The translations under genes and the position numbers were made by a program. From an uncultured bacterium (GTDB lineage: Bacteria; Bacteroidota; Bacteroidia; Bacteroidales; Paludibacteraceae): DNA of 10,827 nucleotides. Each line of letters begins with the position of its first letter. The first letter of the stretch is position 1. Shown one piece after another: positions 1,152 to 10,827 of this stretch. Under the pieces are notes generated by a model. That model made no database searches, was not told the origin of the DNA, and saw only the letters and a program-made list of their open reading frames with translations. The stretch covers positions 1-10,827 of the forward strand of contig CAMTOX010000031.1 in assembly GCA_947074225.1 (NCBI GenBank). The letters run 5' to 3'.

Positions 1152-2681
1152 TTAATGTTTAAAATGACGTTTACCGGTAAATGCCATGGTAATACCCAAT
1201 TCATTACAAGCAGTAATAGAATCTTCATCGCGCATGCTACCACCCGGTTGCACAATAGCGGTTACACCATATTGAGCAGCCAAAGTTACGGTATCGTTAA
1301 ATGGGAAGAAGGCATCGGATGCCAACACAAGGTCGGCAGTGGCGCCGTTGTTCTTGGCTTGCTTTAAAGCAATCTCTGCCGAACCAACGCGGTTCATCTG
1401 TCCGGCACCAACGCCTAAAGTCACACCATCTTTCACCACTACAATGGCATTAGATTTCACATGCTTCACAATACGCATACCAAAGTTCATATCTACAATT
1501 TGCTGTACGGTAGGTGTCTTTTCTGTTACACACATGGTAGGAACAACCATTTCCGAATGTAAATCAATGTCTTGTTCCAACAAACCACCATTCACACTCA
1601 CATATTGCTTAGGCTGCTCATTGCTTGGTTCCATCTTCACCTCAAGTAAGCGAAGGTTCTTCTTGGTGCAAAGAATCTCCAAAGCCTGTGCAGTGAAGCT
1701 TGGTGCTATGATAATCTCTAAGAAGATAGGCTTCATTAACTCGGCAACTTGAGCAGTTACCTCGCAGTTGGTAGCCACAATGCCACCAAAAATACTTACC
1801 GTATCGGCATTGTAACATTTATTCCATGCATCGACAACATCTGTTCCAATAGCAGCTCCACACGGATTCATATGTTTCAGGCCGCAACAGAAAGGCTCTT
1901 GAAACTCGCGTGTTAAAGCCAATGCTGCATTAGCATCTTGAATATTGTTGTAGCTCATCTCTTTGCCATTAAGCTGTTTTGCAAATGCCAAAGAGTATGA
2001 AACCGGCTCTAACTGACGGTAGAATTTCGCTGCTTGATGCGGATTCTCGCCATAACGCAATGATTGTACAAGGTCGTATTCCAAGAATAGTTTCTCATTT
2101 AAACCGGCTTGACGGCGCATATAGGTTGCAATACACATATCGTACTCGGCAGTGTGCGTGTAAGCCTCTGCACTTAATTGTAAACGGGTATTGAGTGTAG
2201 TATTGCCATTCTCCTTAATTTCATTAATAATGGTGGCATAATGTTCAGGGTTGCAAACTACTGTAACATCGCGGTAGTTCTTTGCTGCACTGCGCAACAT
2301 AGAAGGTCCACCAATATCGATATTCTCAATAGCATCTTCCATCTCAACATCTTCACGAGAGATAGTCTGTTTGAAAGGGTATAGATTTACACATACCATA
2401 TCGATAAATTCAATTTCATTATCGGCCAATGCTTGCAAGTGCGAAGCATCGTCACGGCGTGCTAAAAGCCCTCCGTGCACTTTAGGGTGCAATGTCTTGA
2501 CCCTTCCGTCGCAAATTTCGGGAAAACCTGTTACCTCACTGATATTAATAACCGAGATATTGCTATCTTCCAAAAGCTTCATAGTACCCCCGGTAGCAAT
2601 GATATCCCAGCCCAACTCTTTAAGCTGTTTAGCAAACTCCACAAGACCTGTTTTGTCGCTTACACTGATGAGTGCTCTCAT
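1152..2681 (-). CDS. purH: bifunctional AICAR transformylase / IMP cyclohydrolase PurH
   Basis: PurH carries out the last two steps to IMP: formyl transfer from 10-formyl-tetrahydrofolate to AICAR, then ring closure of FAICAR. The 509-residue length fits the family. The N-terminal cyclohydrolase (MGS-like) domain, about residues 1-150, has IATGGT (28-33) and GRVKTLHPKVHGG (59-71). The transformylase domain has SLRYGENPHQ (207-216), the catalytic Lys269-His270 pair in LKHMNPCG, VKSNAIVVVKD (408-418), GAGQMNRVGS (425-434) and the C-terminal GKRHFKH. All key residues are present, so both activities are expected. The sequence resembles the Bacillus subtilis protein much more than the shortened, divergent PurH I recall from Bacteroides. 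It is the last gene of the operon, 54 bases after purN and just before the terminator. The ATG has an A/T-rich leader and no Shine-Dalgarno sequence. Confidence 0.97.
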   Translation of the reverse strand: MRALISVSDKTGLVEFAKQLKELGWDIIATGGTMKLLEDSNISVINISEVTGFPEICDGRVKTLHPKVHGGLLARRDDASHLQALADNEIEFIDMVCVNLYPFKQTISREDVEMEDAIENIDIGGPSMLRSAAKNYRDVTVVCNPEHYATIINEIKENGNTTLNTRLQLSAEAYTHTAEYDMCIATYMRRQAGLNEKLFLEYDLVQSLRYGENPHQAAKFYRQLEPVSYSLAFAKQLNGKEMSYNNIQDANAALALTREFQEPFCCGLKHMNPCGAAIGTDVVDAWNKCYNADTVSIFGGIVATNCEVTAQVAELMKPIFLEIIIAPSFTAQALEILCTKKNLRLLEVKMEPSNEQPKQYVSVNGGLLEQDIDLHSEMVVPTMCVTEKTPTVQQIVDMNFGMRIVKHVKSNAIVVVKDGVTLGVGAGQMNRVGSAEIALKQAKNNGATADLVLASDAFFPFNDTVTLAAQYGVTAIVQPGGSMRDEDSITACNELGITMAFTGKRHFKH

Positions 2682-2735: not shown

Positions 2736-3299
2736 CTACTGTTCCAAGAAGCGGTTTATAGCTTCGGGGAAGAGTTGGTGCTCAATCTTATGAATCTCTG
2801 CTTCGACCTCATCGCGCGAGGTGCCATAATACTCAAAGGCACGTTGCATTAAAATCACACCCCCATCTATGGTGTCGTCAATGAGATGCACAGTAACGCC
2901 AAAGACCTTAACACCAAAGTTAAAAGCATCGTCAATAGCATGTGCTCCCTTAAAAGAGGGCAAAAGAGAGGGGTGAATATTGAGCATACGTCCTTGATAG
3001 GCTTTCAAAAGGGTTGGCCCAACAATACGCATGTAACCGGCTAAACAGACCACATCTACTTGAGCTTCTTGTAACCGATTCACAATCTCGGTTTCAAACA
3101 ACTCTTTTGAGGCATACTGTTTTGGGTTAAAGGTAAAGGTAGGAATGTGAAACTCTTTAGCACGTTCAATGACAAAAGCATTGGCATTGTCGCATACTAA
3201 TAGAGCAATTTCTGCCTGGATAGTACCCTTTTGACACGCTTCGGCTATGGCTTGAAAATTTGAGCCGCTACCCGAAGCAAAGAGAGCAAGTTTTTTCAT
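2736..3299 (-). CDS. purN: phosphoribosylglycinamide formyltransferase PurN (folate-dependent)
   Basis: PurN transfers the formyl group of 10-formyl-tetrahydrofolate to GAR, step 3 of the pathway. I place the start at the ATG at 3297-3299, giving 187 residues beginning MKKLALFASGSGSN, the normal family N terminus with the phosphate-binding loop GSGSN at 10-14. A start 15 codons upstream (3344) would put a hairpin stem inside the coding sequence and add a non-conserved extension. The catalytic residues Asn107, His109 and Asp145 are present (LNIHPSLLP at 106-114, IDGG at 144-147), matching Asn106/His108/Asp144 of E. coli PurN. It resembles B. subtilis PurN (LLVCD, LAGYMR, IHKLEH-like IHKIEH) more than the Bacteroides form. 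The stop is TAG; the other intact genes here end in TAA. It sits between purM and purH. Confidence 0.96.
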   Translation of the reverse strand: MKKLALFASGSGSNFQAIAEACQKGTIQAEIALLVCDNANAFVIERAKEFHIPTFTFNPKQYASKELFETEIVNRLQEAQVDVVCLAGYMRIVGPTLLKAYQGRMLNIHPSLLPSFKGAHAIDDAFNFGVKVFGVTVHLIDDTIDGGVILMQRAFEYYGTSRDEVEAEIHKIEHQLFPEAINRFLEQ

Positions 3300-3313
3300 A
3301 GTGAAAATAGTGT

Positions 3314-3342
3314 GCGACCAAAAGCATTGTGCTTTAGGTCGC
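3314..3342 (-). other. purM-purN intergenic hairpin
   Basis: Bases 3314-3319 (GCGACC) pair with 3337-3342 (GGTCGC), and 3321-3326 pair with 3330-3335, with one opposed mismatch (3320/3336) and a 3-base loop. The 12 paired positions begin 10 bases after the purM stop codon and end 14 bases before the purN ATG. On the minus strand it is followed by ACACTATTTTCACT, with no terminator-grade T run. It may be an mRNA processing, stability or coupling element. The structure is visible; the role is inferred. Confidence 0.6.
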
Positions 3343-3352
3343 ATCTATGGTG

Positions 3353-4384
3353 TTATACAATTTCTACTTTACCGGCTTGGTCTGTTACCTGACCAATGAT
3401 AGAGGCACGTTCGCCATGTTTTGACAATATATCAAGGGCTTTTGGGGCCTCTTGTGCATCCATTGCGATGACCATGCCGATACCCATATTGAAGATATTG
3501 AACATCTCGCGGTGTTTAATATTGCCATATTTCTCTAAGAAACGGAACACAGGAAGAATTTCCCAAGAGCCTTCGTTAATTAAGATTCCTTGTTCGGCAG
3601 TTAAGATACGTGGAATATTCTCGTCGAAACCACCACCGGTGATATGACTAATGCCATGTACATTGCAGTTGTTCACCACGTCCAATACGGGGCGTATATA
3701 TATTTTTGTTGGTGTTAACAACACCTCGCCAAGAGGTGTTGTAGCATCTAACTCTGGGAATACCTCGTGAAGGTTGAAGTTATTATCGGCAACAACTTTA
3801 CGTACTAAGCTAAATCCGTTTGAGTGTACACCGCTTGAAGCAATACCTATCAATAGATCGCCTGCCTTAACTTTGGTACCATCAATTAACTTTGCTTTCT
3901 CTACAGCACCACAAGTGAAGCCTGCAATATCATATTCTCCATCTTGGTACATGCCCGGCATCTCTGCTGTTTCTCCACCAATAAGAGCGCAATTTGCTTG
4001 ACGACACCCTTCGGCAACGCCAGCAACAATTTGTTCAATCTTTTCTGGTTCGTTCTTTCCCACGGCAACATAGTCTAAGAAGTATAGGGGTTCTGCCCCT
4101 TGAGCCAAGACATCGTTCACACACATTGCCACAGCATCAATACCTATGGTATCATGTTTATCCATGGTGAAAGCAAGTTTCAACTTGGTTCCTACACCAT
4201 CGGTACCACTTACTAATACCGGTTCTTTAAGATTCAATGCCGAGAGGTCGAACATTCCTCCAAAGGCACCAATATTTCCCATCACTCCAAGTCGAGAAGT
4301 AGATGCTACATGTTTCTTAATACGACGTACTACTTCGTAGCCTGCTTCCAGGTTTACACCTGCTTTTTCATAACTTTCAGCCAT
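3353..4384 (-). CDS. purM: phosphoribosylformylglycinamidine cyclo-ligase (AIR synthetase) PurM
   Basis: PurM closes the imidazole ring: FGAM + ATP gives AIR, step 5, acting on the product of PurL. The 343-residue length fits the common bacterial family (about 345). Motifs in order are [14 protein letters not shown] (59-72), [18 protein letters not shown] (83-100), [10 protein letters not shown] (135-144), [14 protein letters not shown] (183-196), [13 protein letters not shown] (247-259) and [10 protein letters not shown] (294-303). These are the ATP-grasping and dimer-core segments of the PurM/PurL superfamily. It is strikingly like B. subtilis PurM, for example in [17 protein letters not shown] and [17 protein letters not shown], and unlike the longer (about 390-residue) divergent PurM I recall from Bacteroides. 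It lies 38 bases after purF, with an A-rich leader and no Shine-Dalgarno sequence. A 10-bp hairpin lies inside the gene at 3718-3742. Confidence 0.97.
3718..3742 (-). other. inverted repeat inside purM
   Basis: Bases 3718-3727 (ACAACACCTC) are the exact complement of 3733-3742, with a 5-base loop. The neighbouring bases allow a competing 6-bp stem (GGTGTT with AACACC, 3-base loop, plus-strand 3711-3725) that shares part of the same sequence. It encodes the segment around [11 protein letters not shown] of PurM. This may be a by-product of the codons used for repeated Thr and Leu. Confidence 0.35.
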
Positions 4385-4422: not shown

Positions 4423-5832
4423 TTAGAATTTGCCATCTTTATTGGCATCGTGTAAACTGCTATATAGTGCAGTTGGATATTTGCCCGAGAAACAAGCAGT
4501 ACATAACTCTTTACGTTTTCCGGCTTTATAGAGTGCCTCTTCCGAGAGGAAAGAGAGCGAGTCGGCGCCAATAGTATTACACAACTGCTCAACATTTTGT
4601 TGCGAACTAATAAGCTCTTCGTATGTGGCAGTATCTACACCGTAGAAACATGGGTGTGCAAACGGAGGGCTTGCAATACGTACATGCACCTCTGTAGCTC
4701 CTGCTTCGCGAAGTAAAGAGACTATGCGTCGTGAAGTGGTGCCACGCACTATAGAGTCGTCAATCATCACCACACGTTTACCTTTTACAATAGAACGCAC
4801 TGCCGATAGTTTCATACGTACCCCTTTTTCACGCAGCTCTTGGCTTGGTTGAATAAAGGTACGACCAACATATTTATTTTTTGTCAAGCCCAATTCATAA
4901 GGAATACCACTTGCCTCGCTATACCCCATAGCAGCACTTAAGCTGGAATCGGGTACCCCAATGACGATATCGGCATCGGCTGGCGACTCTTGATACAATA
5001 TTCTTCCCGACTCTTTGCGGTAGGCATGTACGTTAGTATTCTCAATATCGCTATCGGGACGTGCAAAATAGACATACTCCATGGCACACATATAGTGGTG
5101 CTTAAATTTAGAATAGTCGACACTTTTAAGCCCCTCGCGATCGATCACCACAATCTCTCCTGGTTCTACGTCGCGAATAAACTCTGCGCCAACCACATCT
5201 AAAGCACAAGTCTCACTACTTACCACATAACCTCCGTTAAGTTTTCCTATTGAGAGTGGGCGTAAACCATACTTATCTCGGCAAGCATAAATTTTACTTG
5301 CTGTCATAATTAAGAAGGCAAAAGCTCCTTCAATCATATTTAAAGCATCTATGATAGGATATATTCTATCGCGGTCGTCGCGCTCTTTCTTAATGAGGTG
5401 CGCAAGCAATTCACTGTCGGAAGTAGATTGGAATAGGCTTCCACGGTCTTCAAGATACTTAGCCAGCTCTTTAGAGTTCACTAAGTTACCATTGTGTGCT
5501 AAGGCAAAGTTACCGGTATTGTGTCTAAACAAGAAAGGTTGTACGTTCTCAATACCCCCACCTCCTGCGGTAGCATACCTCACATGTCCTATTGACATAT
5601 CGCCTTGCATACCCACAAGATTCTTTTCATTAAACACTTCTGTGACTAAGCCCTCTCCTTTAATGCGCTTAAATTCACGATTATCTACCCGCACAATACC
5701 ACACCCCTCCTGTCCGCGATGCTGAAGTGCATGCAAACCGTAGTAGGCAAGGTTAGCAGCATCTTTCACGCCATAAACGCCAAAGACACCACACTCCTCA
5801 TGTAATTCTGAATTATCTATATTGGGAATCAT
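4423..5832 (-). CDS. purF: amidophosphoribosyltransferase PurF, Fe-S type with propeptide
   Basis: PurF commits PRPP to purine synthesis by transferring glutamine amide nitrogen to give phosphoribosylamine. From the ATG at 5830-5832 it has 469 residues and a 13-residue propeptide ending in Glu-Glu before the nucleophile Cys14 (ECGVFGV), close to the 11-residue propeptide of B. subtilis PurF. The glutaminase domain shows HRGQEG (38-43), GHVRYATAGGGG and LAHNGNLVN. The phosphoribosyltransferase domain has the PRPP loop VVMIDDSIVRGTTS (354-367). The four Fe-S ligand cysteines of the Bacillus enzyme are present: Cys249 (MCAMEY), Cys395 (HPCFYG) and the Cys444-x-x-Cys447 pair. After propeptide removal the first two become 236 and 382, the Bacillus numbers. 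This predicts an oxygen-sensitive [4Fe-4S] enzyme inhibited by purine nucleotides. An ATG at 5877 is possible but lies within a hairpin and would give a 28-residue propeptide. Confidence 0.95.
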   Translation of the reverse strand: MIPNIDNSELHEECGVFGVYGVKDAANLAYYGLHALQHRGQEGCGIVRVDNREFKRIKGEGLVTEVFNEKNLVGMQGDMSIGHVRYATAGGGGIENVQPFLFRHNTGNFALAHNGNLVNSKELAKYLEDRGSLFQSTSDSELLAHLIKKERDDRDRIYPIIDALNMIEGAFAFLIMTASKIYACRDKYGLRPLSIGKLNGGYVVSSETCALDVVGAEFIRDVEPGEIVVIDREGLKSVDYSKFKHHYMCAMEYVYFARPDSDIENTNVHAYRKESGRILYQESPADADIVIGVPDSSLSAAMGYSEASGIPYELGLTKNKYVGRTFIQPSQELREKGVRMKLSAVRSIVKGKRVVMIDDSIVRGTTSRRIVSLLREAGATEVHVRIASPPFAHPCFYGVDTATYEELISSQQNVEQLCNTIGADSLSFLSEEALYKAGKRKELCTACFSGKYPTALYSSLHDANKDGKF

Positions 5833-5847
5833 AAAGATTGAATTGTT

Positions 5848-5878
5848 GATGAATGGGTGAGCAAGCTCACCCTTCATC
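5848..5878 (-). other. purC-purF intergenic hairpin with CUUG loop
   Basis: GGGTGAGC at 5855-5862 is the exact complement of 5865-5872. The stem continues as GATGAA (5848-5853) with TTCATC (5873-5878), past a single bulged base (5854). In RNA the tip can close as a 7-bp stem on a CUUG tetraloop, a stable loop class. It begins 13 bases after the stop codon of the long purC and ends 15 bases before the preferred purF ATG. No T run follows (AACAATTCAATCTTT), so it is not a standard terminator. The alternative purF ATG at 5877 is buried in this stem, which argues against its use. Confidence 0.65.
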
Positions 5879-5891
5879 GCACAAAGATATA

Positions 5892-6839
5892 TTAACGATT
5901 GATTAAATAATTGGTGACATGTTCAGAGATACGCTCTGTGATGTTACTCTCGTCGGCTTTAATGAACTTTTCGCCGGTGATATTCTCATAAAGTTCTATG
6001 TAACGTTCAGAGATACTCTCTACAATTTCCGGTGTCATTTCAGGAACTTGTTGTCCTGCTTTACCTTGGAAACCATTCTCCATTAGCCACTCGCGTACAA
6101 ACTCCTTTGAGAGTTGTTTTTGAGCTTGGCCCTTATCAAAGCGTGTTTGATACTCATCGGCATAGAAGTAACGGCTAGAGTCGGGAGTATGAATTTCGTC
6201 CATTAAATAGATGGTGCCATTATTTGATCCGAATTCATATTTAGTATCTACCAAAATAAGTCCGCGTTCTGCTGCCATCTCTGTGCCACGAGCGAAGAGT
6301 TCTAAAGTATATTTCTCCAATACAGCATACTCTTGTGCCGACACTAACCCCTGTTTAAGAATCTCCTCTTTAGAGATATCCTCATCGTGCTCTCCTTGTT
6401 CTGCTTTAGTAGTCGGAGTGATGATAGGTGTAGGGAACTTTTCGTTCTCGCGCATACCATCGGGCAATGTCACGCCACATATTTGACGTACTCCCGATTT
6501 ATATGCACGCCATGCACTACCACAAAGATATCCGCGTACAATCATCTCTACCGGATATCCTTGACAAGCAACTCCCACAGTGACCATAGGGTCTGGAGTA
6601 GCAAGTTTCCAGTTAGGGCAGATATCTTCTGTAGCGTCTAGAAACTTCGCTGCAATTTGATTTAACATCTGTCCTTTATAAGGAATACCTTTAGGCAAAA
6701 CAACATCGAATGCCGAGATACGGTCGGTAACGACCATTACAAGTAAATCATTGCCGATGGTATACACATCGCGCACTTTCCCATGATACACTTTGGTTTG
6801 GTTAGGAAAATTGAAATTAGTTGCAGTTAATGCGTTCAT
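5892..6839 (-). CDS. purC: SAICAR synthetase PurC, long (Bacteroidota-type) form
   Basis: This enzyme joins CAIR and aspartate with ATP to give SAICAR, step 8. The 315 residues carry the family signatures: GKVRDVY (20-26), DRISAFD (39-45), [13 protein letters not shown] (96-108, signature 1), LVDTKYEFG (196-204, signature 2) and [10 protein letters not shown] (214-223). The insert with [17 protein letters not shown] (131-147) and the C-terminal extension with [12 protein letters not shown] (241-252) are typical of the roughly 300-residue class and absent from the 240-residue class. It matches what I recall of Bacteroides PurC very closely. It stands directly downstream of a second, short purC, with a 63-base gap free of hairpins. 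All active-site motifs are intact, so it is probably functional and redundant with its neighbour. No Shine-Dalgarno sequence precedes the ATG. Confidence 0.96.
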
Positions 6840-6902
6840 ATGAATTCGTTTTATAAGAAGTTTTGAAAATTGTTTTTGATAAATTTAGAGCTTGTAGAAT
6901 GG

Positions 6903-7637
6903 TTATGAGAGTCTCTTTAGAATCTCTTCGTAGGCCTCGCCTACTCTTCCTAAGTCGCGACGGAATCGGTCTTTATCCAACCTTTCCAATGTTTCGCTAT
7001 CCCAAAGACGGCAGGTGTCTGGGCTCAACTCATCGGCAAGTATTAACGAGCCATCGTCAAGACGTCCAAATTCTACTTTAAAGTCGACTAAAGTAATGCC
7101 CAAATTGGCGAACAAATTTATCAATATTTCATTGATAAGACGTAACATCTCCATAGCTTCTGTGAGTTCCAGAAAGGTGCTTAAACCTAAAGCTACAGCG
7201 TGCGACTCATTGATAACAGGGTCGCCCAAGCGGTCGTTCTTGTAACAAATCTCGTAAATAGGCACTGAAAGGACATGTCCCTCATCTAATCCTAAACGAC
7301 GTGCCATTGATCCGGCAGCAATGTTACGAGCTATAAACTCTAATGGGATTACATTTTTGCGACGGCATAACTGCTCCCTATCGTTCAACTGCTGAACAAA
7401 ATGTGTCTTAACACCTGCCTGTTCTAACTTTTGATAGACAATAGAAGATATTTTATTGTTTAATATTCCTTTGTTCTCAATCTGTGCTCTTTTAATTCCA
7501 TTATAGGCCGTAGCATCGTCTTTGTAACGAATAATTACTAAGTCGGGATCGTTAGTGGTATAGATTTGCTTGGCTTTACCCTCGTAAATCTTCTCTGCCA
7601 CCTGCCACTGACCTGCTTCTGTATTATTTAATTCCAT
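6903..7637 (-). CDS. purC: SAICAR synthetase PurC, short (Bacillota-type) form
   Basis: This gene encodes a second, non-identical enzyme for the same step (CAIR + Asp + ATP to SAICAR). At 244 residues it is the compact class. Motifs are YEGKAKQIY (18-26), RYKDDATAYNG (37-47), IENKGILNNKIS (53-64), VIPLEFIARNIAAGS (96-110, signature 1), LVDFKVEFG (183-191, signature 2) and DELSPDTCR (202-210). Nothing essential looks lost, so it is not an obvious pseudogene. Wording such as AQIENKG.LNNKIS and HFVQQLNDREQ is that of the Bacillus/Clostridium enzyme. The N terminus is some 8 residues longer than usual; no later Met could serve as a start. It differs strongly in length and sequence from the long purC just downstream, so the pair is not a recent tandem duplication. 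It lies 68 bases after purL. Confidence 0.95.
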   Translation of the reverse strand: MELNNTEAGQWQVAEKIYEGKAKQIYTTNDPDLVIIRYKDDATAYNGIKRAQIENKGILNNKISSIVYQKLEQAGVKTHFVQQLNDREQLCRRKNVIPLEFIARNIAAGSMARRLGLDEGHVLSVPIYEICYKNDRLGDPVINESHAVALGLSTFLELTEAMEMLRLINEILINLFANLGITLVDFKVEFGRLDDGSLILADELSPDTCRLWDSETLERLDKDRFRRDLGRVGEAYEEILKRLS

Positions 7638-7705: not shown

Positions 7706-10700
7706 TTATGCTTTTCTAAAATAGTTCACTGCATTATCAAATAGCGACTGCTGTTTCTCGCCATAGATATTTTTGAAAAGATCTTTGCCATAACGTTCAG
7801 TATGTCCCATCTTACCCAATATTTGTCCGTTGGCACTTACAATACCTTCAATAGCATAGCATGAGCCATTAGGGTTGAAAGGAGCAGAAGTGGTAATCTC
7901 GCCATTTTGGTCTACATATTGGAATGCTACTTGACCATTTTGGAACAACTCTTTTGCCATCTCTTGCGACACCACGAACTTACCTTCACCATGACTCACT
8001 GCAATAACGTGCTTATCGCCCACCTTGAAGCTAGACAACCATGGAGAGTTTGTGGTAGAGATGCAAGTGGTTACCATTTGCGAGATGTGACGGTTAATGT
8101 CGTTACGGAACAAAGTTGGCGACTCTTTAGTAACACTTCCTAATTTACCATAAGGTAGCAAACCTGATTTTACCAATGCTTGGAAGCCATTACAGATACC
8201 TAAAATTAATCCGCCACGGTCTATTAACTTATGAACCTGTTCGGCCACAGCTTTATTGTTCAATACACTGGCAATGAATTTACCGCTACCATCTGGCTCA
8301 TCTCCTGCCGAGAATCCACCGCTCAACACCAAGATTTGACACTCGGCAATGCGATTGCACATCTCTTTAATAGAGTCAAAAATAGCTTCACTGGTAATGT
8401 TACGGAACACACTAGTTGTTACTTGAGCACCTGCCTTGCGGAATGCTTTAGCAGTGTCGTAGTCGCAATTGGTGCCAGGGAACACAGGTAAGTAGGCAAT
8501 TGGTTGCTCAATAGGTGCCCCCGGATATTCAAACTTACGCTGTTCTGCAACAATAGGCTTCAAAGTTTCACCGGCATTACCCTTATCAGGATATACTGTT
8601 GCAAAACGCTCTGTATTTGCTTTATAAAGTTCCTCAATGCTCATATGTGCATCGTCAATGACAATATGTGCCTCTTCAGAAGTATGACCTAAAAGAATTG
8701 CATATTTACAATCTAGTGGTTGCGTAGACTCTACTACTATAGAACCGTAGTTGTAGTTAAACAACTCATCGCGCTCCACCTTTACTTTTGCTCCGATACG
8801 GTTACCAAAAGACATCTTACTAATTGCCTCGCCAATACCACCAAAGCCAACGGCATATCCAGAAACAATGTTCTTAGCTTCAATACTATCGCTAACGAAG
8901 TTAAAAATATCTACCAATTGCTCACAATCGGGCATATAGTTAGCTAAAGGGGTATGCTTAAGTAAATAGATATAGTTTCCAGCTTTCTTAAAGTCGGTAC
9001 TGATTACATTAGCAGCATTTACGGTAGTGATACCAAAAGCCATAAGCATTGGAGGCACATCAATATCGTGGAAAGTACCACTCATAGAGTCTTTACCACC
9101 TATTGATGGAAGCTTTAAAGCCTCTTGTATCTTCAATGCGCCAAGCAATGCGCTGAAAGGTTTTCCCCAAGAATGGGCATCGGTCATACGTTCAAAATAC
9201 TCTTGGTATGAGAAACGCATATGTTCAAAGCGTCCACCTGCTGCCACAACTTTAGAGCACGCCTCAATAATTGCATAGGCCGCTCCATGATAAGGGCTCC
9301 AAGTGGTGATGAATGGGTTATAACCATAGGCCATCATTGAAGCGGTATTTGTATCGGCATTCAATACAGGTAACTTCTGTACACTTACTTGTGTTTCACT
9401 ATCTTGATTTAACCCACCGAAAGGCATCAACACTGTCGATGCACCAATGGTAGCGTCAAACATCTCTATTAATCCTTTTTGAGAGACAACATTATCGTCC
9501 TCAAGGTTATGTTTCATGCGTTCTGCTATGTCGGCTCCCTTCACTTCACGTTTCATCGGGTTAACATTGCTTACCGCTTGTACATCTACATCGGCATAGT
9601 GAGGTGCGCCGGCACTATCAATAAAGTCACGAGTAAGGTCTACTACCATCTCATCTTTATAGAACATACGCATACGGCGTTTATCTGTTACGTCGGCCAC
9701 ATGTACCACTTCAATATTCTCTTGAGCACAATAGTTCATAAAGGCTTCTTTGTCTTTTGCCTCTACTACTACCGACATGCGCTCTTGCGACTCACTAATT
9801 GCTAGTTCTGTGGCGTTTAATCCACTATATTTTGTTAGTACACGGTCCAAATAGATATCTAATCCATCGGTCAATTCACCAATAGCCACACTTACTCCTC
9901 CAGCACCAAAGTCGTTCGATTTCTTCACCAGGCGTGTCACTTCCGGACGACGGAACAAGCGCTCAAGTTTACGTTCTTCAGGCGCATTACCTTTCTGAAC
10001 TTCACTTCCGCAAGTCTCTAACGACTCTGTAGTATGTTCTTTTGAAGAGCCTGTAGCCCCACCAACACCATCACGACCGGTACGTCCGCCAAACATAAGC
10101 ACAACATCGCCAGGTATTGGCGACTCACGACGAACATCTTCAGCCTTTACAGCACCTACTACAGCACCTACTTCTAAACGTTTTGCAACATAATTAGGGT
10201 GATATAATTCGCGAACATGAGTTGTTGCTAAACCTATTTGGTTACCATAGCTTGAGTAGCCATGTGCAGCTTTAGTAGAGATAACACGTTGTGGTAACTT
10301 TCCAGGCATAGTTTCCGACACAGGAAGGTAAATATTTCCAGCACCTGTTACACGCATAGCTTGATATACGTAACTACGACCAGATAATGGGTCGCGAATA
10401 GCACCGCCTAAACACGTTGAAGCACCACCAAAAGGTTCTATCTCTGTTGGGTGGTTATGAGTTTCGTTCTTAAACTGTAACAACCAACGCTCTGTTTCAC
10501 CATCTACGTCTACATCTACATAGATACTGCAGGCGTTATTCTCTTCACTCACCTCCATATCATTTAAGAAGCCCTCTTTCTTCAAATAGCGAGCTCCAAT
10601 AGTAGCCATATCCATTAAGCAGATATCTTTATCTTCACGTCCTAATGCTTGGCGCATGTGGTAATAAAGATCCAAACTCTCTTGCATTTCGCTCTTCATA

Positions 10701-10827
10701 AATGACTCATCAATAGTGATATTCTTAATGACAGAGGTAAAAGTGGTGTGACGGCAGTGGTCACTCCAATAGGTATCTAAAATACGCAACTCTGTTTCAC
10801 GAGGGTCACGTCCTTCATTCTTAAAAT
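7706..10827 (-). CDS. purL: phosphoribosylformylglycinamidine synthase PurL, large single-chain form (5' end missing)
   Basis: PurL converts FGAR, glutamine and ATP to FGAM, step 4. The frame is open to the right edge; 1039 residues are visible (numbered from the codon at 10823-10825) of an expected 1200-1250, so the N-terminal PurS-like part is outside. The TTG at 10787-10789 is an internal Leu, not a start: upstream codons read FKNEGRDPRETE, continuing the conserved block to DTYWSDHCRHTTF. Visible are KNETHNHPTEIEPFGGAS (about 119-136), GGRTGRDG (246-253), NDFGAGGVSVAIGELTDG and GGKDSMSG, the synthetase motifs. From about residue 795 comes a fused glutaminase domain: FPGTNCDYDT, LSGGFSAGDEPDGSGKF, the nucleophile Cys878 in GICNGFQ, and His1008/Glu1010 in GHTERYG. 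WSDHCRHTTF marks the Clostridium-type large PurL, whereas E. coli and Bacteroides have NSEHCRHK. As glutaminase and synthetase are one chain, separate purQ and purS are not needed. Confidence 0.97.
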   Translation of the reverse strand, partial: FKNEGRDPRETELRILDTYWSDHCRHTTFTSVIKNITIDESFMKSEMQESLDLYYHMRQALGREDKDICLMDMATIGARYLKKEGFLNDMEVSEENNACSIYVDVDVDGETERWLLQFKNETHNHPTEIEPFGGASTCLGGAIRDPLSGRSYVYQAMRVTGAGNIYLPVSETMPGKLPQRVISTKAAHGYSSYGNQIGLATTHVRELYHPNYVAKRLEVGAVVGAVKAEDVRRESPIPGDVVLMFGGRTGRDGVGGATGSSKEHTTESLETCGSEVQKGNAPEERKLERLFRRPEVTRLVKKSNDFGAGGVSVAIGELTDGLDIYLDRVLTKYSGLNATELAISESQERMSVVVEAKDKEAFMNYCAQENIEVVHVADVTDKRRMRMFYKDEMVVDLTRDFIDSAGAPHYADVDVQAVSNVNPMKREVKGADIAERMKHNLEDDNVVSQKGLIEMFDATIGASTVLMPFGGLNQDSETQVSVQKLPVLNADTNTASMMAYGYNPFITTWSPYHGAAYAIIEACSKVVAAGGRFEHMRFSYQEYFERMTDAHSWGKPFSALLGALKIQEALKLPSIGGKDSMSGTFHDIDVPPMLMAFGITTVNAANVISTDFKKAGNYIYLLKHTPLANYMPDCEQLVDIFNFVSDSIEAKNIVSGYAVGFGGIGEAISKMSFGNRIGAKVKVERDELFNYNYGSIVVESTQPLDCKYAILLGHTSEEAHIVIDDAHMSIEELYKANTERFATVYPDKGNAGETLKPIVAEQRKFEYPGAPIEQPIAYLPVFPGTNCDYDTAKAFRKAGAQVTTSVFRNITSEAIFDSIKEMCNRIAECQILVLSGGFSAGDEPDGSGKFIASVLNNKAVAEQVHKLIDRGGLILGICNGFQALVKSGLLPYGKLGSVTKESPTLFRNDINRHISQMVTTCISTTNSPWLSSFKVGDKHVIAVSHGEGKFVVSQEMAKELFQNGQVAFQYVDQNGEITTSAPFNPNGSCYAIEGIVSANGQILGKMGHTERYGKDLFKNIYGEKQQSLFDNAVNYFRKA

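Follow-up and report, generated by a model that had tools for sequence, protein, structure and literature searches.

The window, by which is meant the whole stretch of DNA analysed (10,827 bases, corresponding to the entire contig C31 of genome G000, which is 67.5% complete), contains two purC genes side by side in a purine operon. These were best explained as a xenologous pair that arose when the purine pathway was almost entirely replaced but the native purC was retained, a reading to which we assign a probability of about 0.7. The genes run purL-purC-purC-purF-purM-purN-purH on the minus strand, as follows:

1152..2681, minus strand: purH, assigned by homology; 67–78% identity in paired genomes and 41–44% in one-purC relatives (full-length matches)
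2736..3344, minus strand: purN (TIGR00639); the true start is possibly 15 codons inside
3353..4384, minus strand: purM, of the canonical TIGR00878 type
4423..5877, minus strand: purF, of the canonical TIGR01134 type; the true start is possibly some codons inside
5892..6839, minus strand: long purC (315 aa), of the native Bacteroidales type; active-site letters match those of one-copy relatives
6903..7637, minus strand: short purC (244 aa), of the imported type; K11, K13, R94, S100, D175, E179, D191, R199 and R215 present (E. coli numbering)
7706..10825, minus strand: purL, its start lost at the contig end; median identity 69% in paired genomes and 24% in one-purC relatives

From these coordinates, the spacers measured 68 nt between purL and the short purC, 63 nt between the two purC genes and 14 nt between the long purC and purF. 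Both purC reading frames were open, and their GC and GC3 were unremarkable beside their neighbours (0.414 and 0.421; 0.412 and 0.377). No family was matched in an Rfam scan of the window. A frame of 271 aa on the plus strand (241–1056) had a signal-like start and a repeated YDN-type pattern, and found no match in Pfam or NCBIfam.

Both purC products matched PF01259 over nearly the whole of the profile (239.9 and 276.9 bits; cut-off 20) and were the only matches to it in the genome, which bears out the original prediction that two intact purC genes, of 244 and 315 residues, lie in succession here. The long PurC scored 504.4 bits against NF009251/PRK12607 (cut-off 371), where the short PurC obtained only 57.4; the short PurC scored 237.6 bits against TIGR00081 (cut-off 189.9), where the long PurC obtained 172.6, and neither therefore reached the cut-off for the other's model. 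The long PurC also exceeded the cut-off of NF010568 (274 bits vs 251). By sequence, the nearest solved structure to the short copy was 3nua, while the long copy was nearest to 1obg/1a48 and to chains of 3r9r/6yvq; the source organisms are presumably Clostridium, yeast and mycobacteria respectively. Identity between the two proteins was 24% over 236 residues. Being adjacent and belonging to one Pfam family, the copies could be imagined as the tandem duplicates of a single purC that later diverged, but each has much closer relatives elsewhere (identities of up to 71% and 82% to other homologs). A recent tandem duplication was rejected on this account and, given also the separate NCBIfam models, duplication is extremely improbable as an origin of the pair. 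Judged by these comparisons, the genes are xenologs and not duplicates; the two copies did not turn out to be sisters, and the separate lineages initially proposed for them were borne out.

The pair was not peculiar to one genome. A PF01259 search of 150 genomes of the family (Paludibacteraceae), with the window's own counted in, returned two matches in 16 genomes, one match in 104 and none in 30. Thus, when the same pair was sought in related genomes, it was found in 15 of the 149 other family members. It was present in all listed members of genera g1 (one genome), g15 (eight), g17 (two) and g20 (five), these counts referring to listed genomes, outside which fall 10 genomes with no match and no genus given. 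In the class sample (296 Bacteroidia genomes, i.e., 295 plus the window's own), two complete purC genes were seen in none of the 295 others, in keeping with the expectation that a single purC per genome is the norm. Four of the 295 had more than one match, and a true second purC was rejected for each, the extra matches all being contig-edge or interrupted pieces; for one of these, G434, two incomplete copies are strictly possible. Five further genomes with more than one match came from the order sample of 198 genomes (G206, G217, G187, G300 and G325). A true second purC was rejected for G206, where the match was a contig-edge piece, and for G217, where the gene was interrupted. G300 (L164) and G187 (L165:1483–2316), from two other families, each possessed a second, distant PurC-like protein of approximately 280–300 aa, with about 105 bits to PF01259 and 25–27% identity to the window's short copy; the gene upstream of that in L165 resembled a mechanosensitive channel, as judged by eye. 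G325 (family f74) possessed a short purC that carried an in-frame TAG and adjoined a canonical purF, together with a native-type PurH and two long-purC pieces that ran into contig ends (C40:9052–9729, C68:40094–40564 and C13:22674–22934; loci L158, L163 and L168). An assembly chimera unique to the window's MAG was also rejected, given that 13 other family genomes had both genes on the same contig and 2 had them on separate contigs, and that the database cluster containing the window's short protein was found on 6 contigs. A literature search, with most subscription journals outside its reach, found no paper on the pair or on purine-operon replacement in Paludibacteraceae.

The origins of the individual genes were evaluated by comparing the window's proteins with loci from paired genomes (those with both purC genes) and one-purC genomes, where at least 60% of the query was covered. 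The median identity of long PurC was 76% across 15 paired genomes and 78% (range 71–82) across 24 one-purC family genomes; because it is 71–82% identical in one-purC relatives, the long copy was considered the family's own. The other proteins separated the two groups: median identities in paired and one-purC genomes were, respectively, 69% (n = 9) vs 24% (n = 13) for PurL, 76.5% (n = 14) vs 25% (n = 10) for PurF, 79.5% (n = 14) vs 24% (n = 6) for PurM and 74% (n = 12) vs 42.5% (n = 10) for PurH. No PurN turned up among the one-purC loci so compared. Whole-genome searches gave the same division, with canonical PurF (E <= 1e-60) and canonical PurM (E <= 1e-40) each detected in 9 of 10 paired genomes and in none of 20 one-purC genomes. 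A divergent PurF of approximately 600–630 aa, for which the query came from G164 and scored 135 bits against TIGR01134 (cut-off 350), was present in 13 of 14 one-purC genomes and absent from all 16 paired genomes; in 15 of the latter the query made weak matches, all of them within canonical purF, and in G045 none. At E <= 1e-20, the PurH search was positive for 13 of 16 paired genomes, with full-length matches of 67–78% identity (in G099 as one frame in two pieces), and for 12 of 14 one-purC genomes, where 10 matches were full-length at 41–44% and two partial. At this threshold, none of the 16 paired genomes had a second PurH of native type. Two frames of approximately 200 codons (G018:C4:97346–97912 and G004:C4:102319–102879) matched PurH over its N-terminal 190 residues alone, and these are possibly separate IMP cyclohydrolase genes. 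On the evidence of these identities, the window's operon comes from outside the family, its long purC excepted. With foreign PurL, PurF, PurM and PurH beside a native long PurC, the native operon would have given way to an imported one and the resident purC would have survived; this agrees with the earlier proposal that a resident gene came to lie within an incoming operon, with purC on one side and purF on the other.

The purC genes were direct neighbours in 11 of the 16 paired genomes; in three, a single gene separated them (a PF09587 member in both G016 and G045, a gene for an S1-domain protein in G068), and in two they occurred on different contigs (G048 and G085). Where paired loci were scanned upstream, purE (PF00731) preceded purL in all three; the corresponding spot in the window is past the contig end. 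Where a short purC occurred with no long copy in the locus, purF came straight after it in 10 of 14 cases. Two of the loci compared, L049 (an uncultured bacterium) and L042 (a Traorella MAG), had purL-purC-purF-purM in the window's order, with purN-purH also in L049, but differed from the window in having no long purC between purC and purF. The window's long copy belongs to the same type as the single long PurC of Bacteroidales (NF009251/PRK12607); unlike the window's, the long purC of one-purC family members was located outside this operon, with phoH beside it or one gene off in 5 of 12 loci scanned. Two paired genomes of unusual structure were observed. In G019, PurL and the short PurC formed one open frame of 1477 codons (L143:1303–5736), a PurL-PurC fusion seen in a single MAG; when its PurC part was searched among proteins of suitable length there was one match, which was not a PurL fusion. 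In G048, a 278-aa frame resembling the C-terminal end of PurL stood alone before the short purC (L146:8309–9145), with the remaining PurL domains on another contig, which possibly represents a split PurL.

Phylogenetic analysis of the short PurC (100 rows, quick method, omitting rows of <35% identity and the duplicates L041, L085 and L095, which are the same contigs as G043, G096 and G107) placed the 16 paired rows on one side of a branch (SH-aLRT 93). Their neighbours were Bacteroidales loci (L043, L050, L052, L091 and L089), and the wider surroundings comprised Bacillota, Mycoplasmatota, Spirochaetota and Rikenellaceae. The short copy had been described as 'Bacillota-like'; this holds for the wider, mixed group that includes Bacillota, and not for its nearest kin, which are short-purC Bacteroidales. 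Paired rows likewise occupied one side of a branch in the trees for PurF (15 rows, SH-aLRT 79) and PurH (13 rows, SH-aLRT 79), and required two changes in those for PurM (15 rows) and PurL (10 rows); sequences from one-purC relatives with <35% identity were excluded from the PurF, PurM and PurL trees. When 47 long copies were placed in a careful tree, the paired rows did not group together, requiring four changes, and the window's long PurC grouped with the one-purC genome G017 (support 96/82). Forcing the long copies of paired genomes together was not rejected (p-AU = 0.268). Given four changes for long PurC and two for PurM and PurL, the acquisition may not have been a single event, and repeated transfer or loss is possible.

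Active-site positions were taken from PMC3261824, which gives K11, K13, R94, S100, D175, R199 and R215 of E. coli PurC as CAIR contacts and E179 as an ADP contact. With respect to these, the window's short copy had K11, K13, R94, S100, D175, E179, R199 and R215, with Q69 replaced by H, as in 98% of references. The long copy had K11, R94, S100, D175, E179 and R199. It carried R in place of K13, W in place of Q69 and Q in place of R215, as did every one of the 45 long rows in the comparison, and at the E. coli contact sites it equalled the consensus of one-copy long PurCs. Both of the window's copies look catalytically intact from these residues. In the alignments, which omitted the fragmentary or broken genes of G325, G217 and G206, the long copy of all 16 paired genomes kept the consensus at K11, R13, R94, S100, K123, D129, D175, K177, E179, D191 and R199, position 95 deviating in G016, G045 and G019; the short copy was unchanged at K11, K123, D129, D175, K177, E179, D191, R199 and R215. 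CAIR contacts of the short copy were altered in five of 16, through R94H (G043 and G131) or K13R with S100D (G014, G096 and G107), and all five g20 genomes carried F176A/V. Among 83 reference short PurCs, R94 and F176 were present in all, K13 in 82 and S100 in 80. At 44 near-invariant columns, the references departed on average 0.29 times per row (maximum 6) and the 16 paired rows 30 times in total.

These alterations raise the possibility that functions have been divided, the long copy acting as SAICAR synthetase and the short copy having taken, or now taking, another role, with a different acceptor in place of CAIR, as a regulator, or as a protein working together with PurL or the long PurC; in that event the window would be only at the beginning. 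Such a split is conceivable but on balance improbable. Pointing towards it, R94H (2/16) and K13R with S100D (3/16) affect CAIR contacts (as defined in PMC3261824) that are near-invariant in the 83 references, and the latter changes coincide elsewhere. Two protein searches (the best 120 of 4326 and the best 120 of 7997 hits) provided 218 distinct proteins for alignment, including the window's. K13R occurred in 18 of the 218 listed proteins, and exactly these carried Asp (17) or Glu (1) at position 100; the other 200 had K13, with Ser (190), Thr (8) or Ala (2) at 100. R94H was seen in five of the 218, and F176 was replaced in 25. When these columns were masked for tree building, K13R and the acidic residue at 100 required one change each, and R94H up to four. 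With G014, G096 and G107 added, the 21 K13R rows were 61–100% identical to one another and had in common nine class-specific invariant positions, K13R included; all 21 retained the ADP contact E179, as well as K11, D129, D175, K177, D191 and R199, and were canonical at every examined active-site position but 13 and 100. Furthermore, the short copies of the carriers were strongly constrained: dN/dS (Nei-Gojobori, own script) was 0.040 for G043 and G131 (both R94H; dS = 0.38) and 0.029 for G096 and G014 (both K13R/S100D; dS = 1.8, near saturation). Because altered CAIR contacts were thus kept under purifying selection, a changed role for the short copy in the sister genera may be considered a live option; for the window itself, the outcomes first suggested (dosage, differing kinetics or another substrate) are each possible. 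Several observations argue against the split. The window's short copy is canonical at 13, 94 and 100, and thereby outside the K13R/S100D-E group; R94H, having arisen up to four times, may simply be tolerated, and R94 is retained in P0021, which shares 95% identity with the R94H query; and in g20 it is the long copy that strays most from its norm (G048 at 6, G019 at 4 and G085 at 4 of 131 near-invariant columns), none of these deviations being at the active-site positions examined. A narrower version, which we regard as rather unlikely, is that in one branch the imported copy gave rise to a distinct PurC-like group, with another acceptor or serving as a partner protein in the purine operon. This group would be marked by K13R, Asp/Glu100 and seven or eight further fixed changes, its CAIR phosphate pocket being altered; by residue, it would still be competent for ATP, metal and aspartate, purifying selection would maintain it, and the window would represent the state before the change.

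It is also conceivable, though quite unlikely, that the pair is plain redundancy in passing, with either the native or the imported copy in the course of being lost. Six sampled genomes of other families had the short purC only, and the combination in G325 of an in-frame TAG in the short purC with contig-edge pieces of long purC could be viewed as such a loss. Against this, both frames were open in all 16 paired genomes, belonging to four genera (the short copy of G019 being fused to PurL), and dN/dS was far below 1 for both copies. The long copies gave 0.042 (G043–G131) and 0.027 (G096–G014) for the same pairs as above, and across all computable pairs the values for both copies were between 0.03 and 0.14 (largest 0.141), a zero-difference pair aside; many pairs with saturated dS yielded no ratio. 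These ratios show both purC copies to be under purifying selection.

Replacement of the pathway with retention of the native purC, the explanation preferred here, would have begun when a Paludibacteraceae ancestor gained an operon resembling those of certain Bacillota and uncultured bacteria and carrying purL, the short purC, purF, purM and purH, and very likely purE and purN as well. PurF and PurH of the native types are now missing from the paired genomes, while the native long purC was kept, coming to adjoin the imported purC in most of them, between it and the imported purF. To judge from their residues, the window's two proteins most probably both convert CAIR, aspartate and ATP to SAICAR. 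Alongside a second copy, the imported one would have been free to diverge, the presence of the long copy being the presumed enabling cause; in the sequences of some sister lineages, its CAIR contacts have indeed changed under continued purifying selection. A precedent exists in Thermococcus kodakaraensis and T. gammatolerans, for which PMC3261824 describes two purC genes in separate clusters, one of them truncated, and one purC with signs of horizontal transfer beside other purine genes. The likeness is in having two purC-like genes per genome, one apparently transferred; the window's case differs in that the copies are adjacent, that each is of full length, that their size classes differ and that four genera share them.

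The paired genomes amount to a natural experiment in pathway replacement, in which several enzymes were exchanged and one native enzyme was kept beside its replacement across four genera. The pair makes it testable why one step of a pathway resists replacement, and the altered short copies may serve as a well-delimited example of how an essential enzyme moves towards another function when its task is already performed by a second copy.
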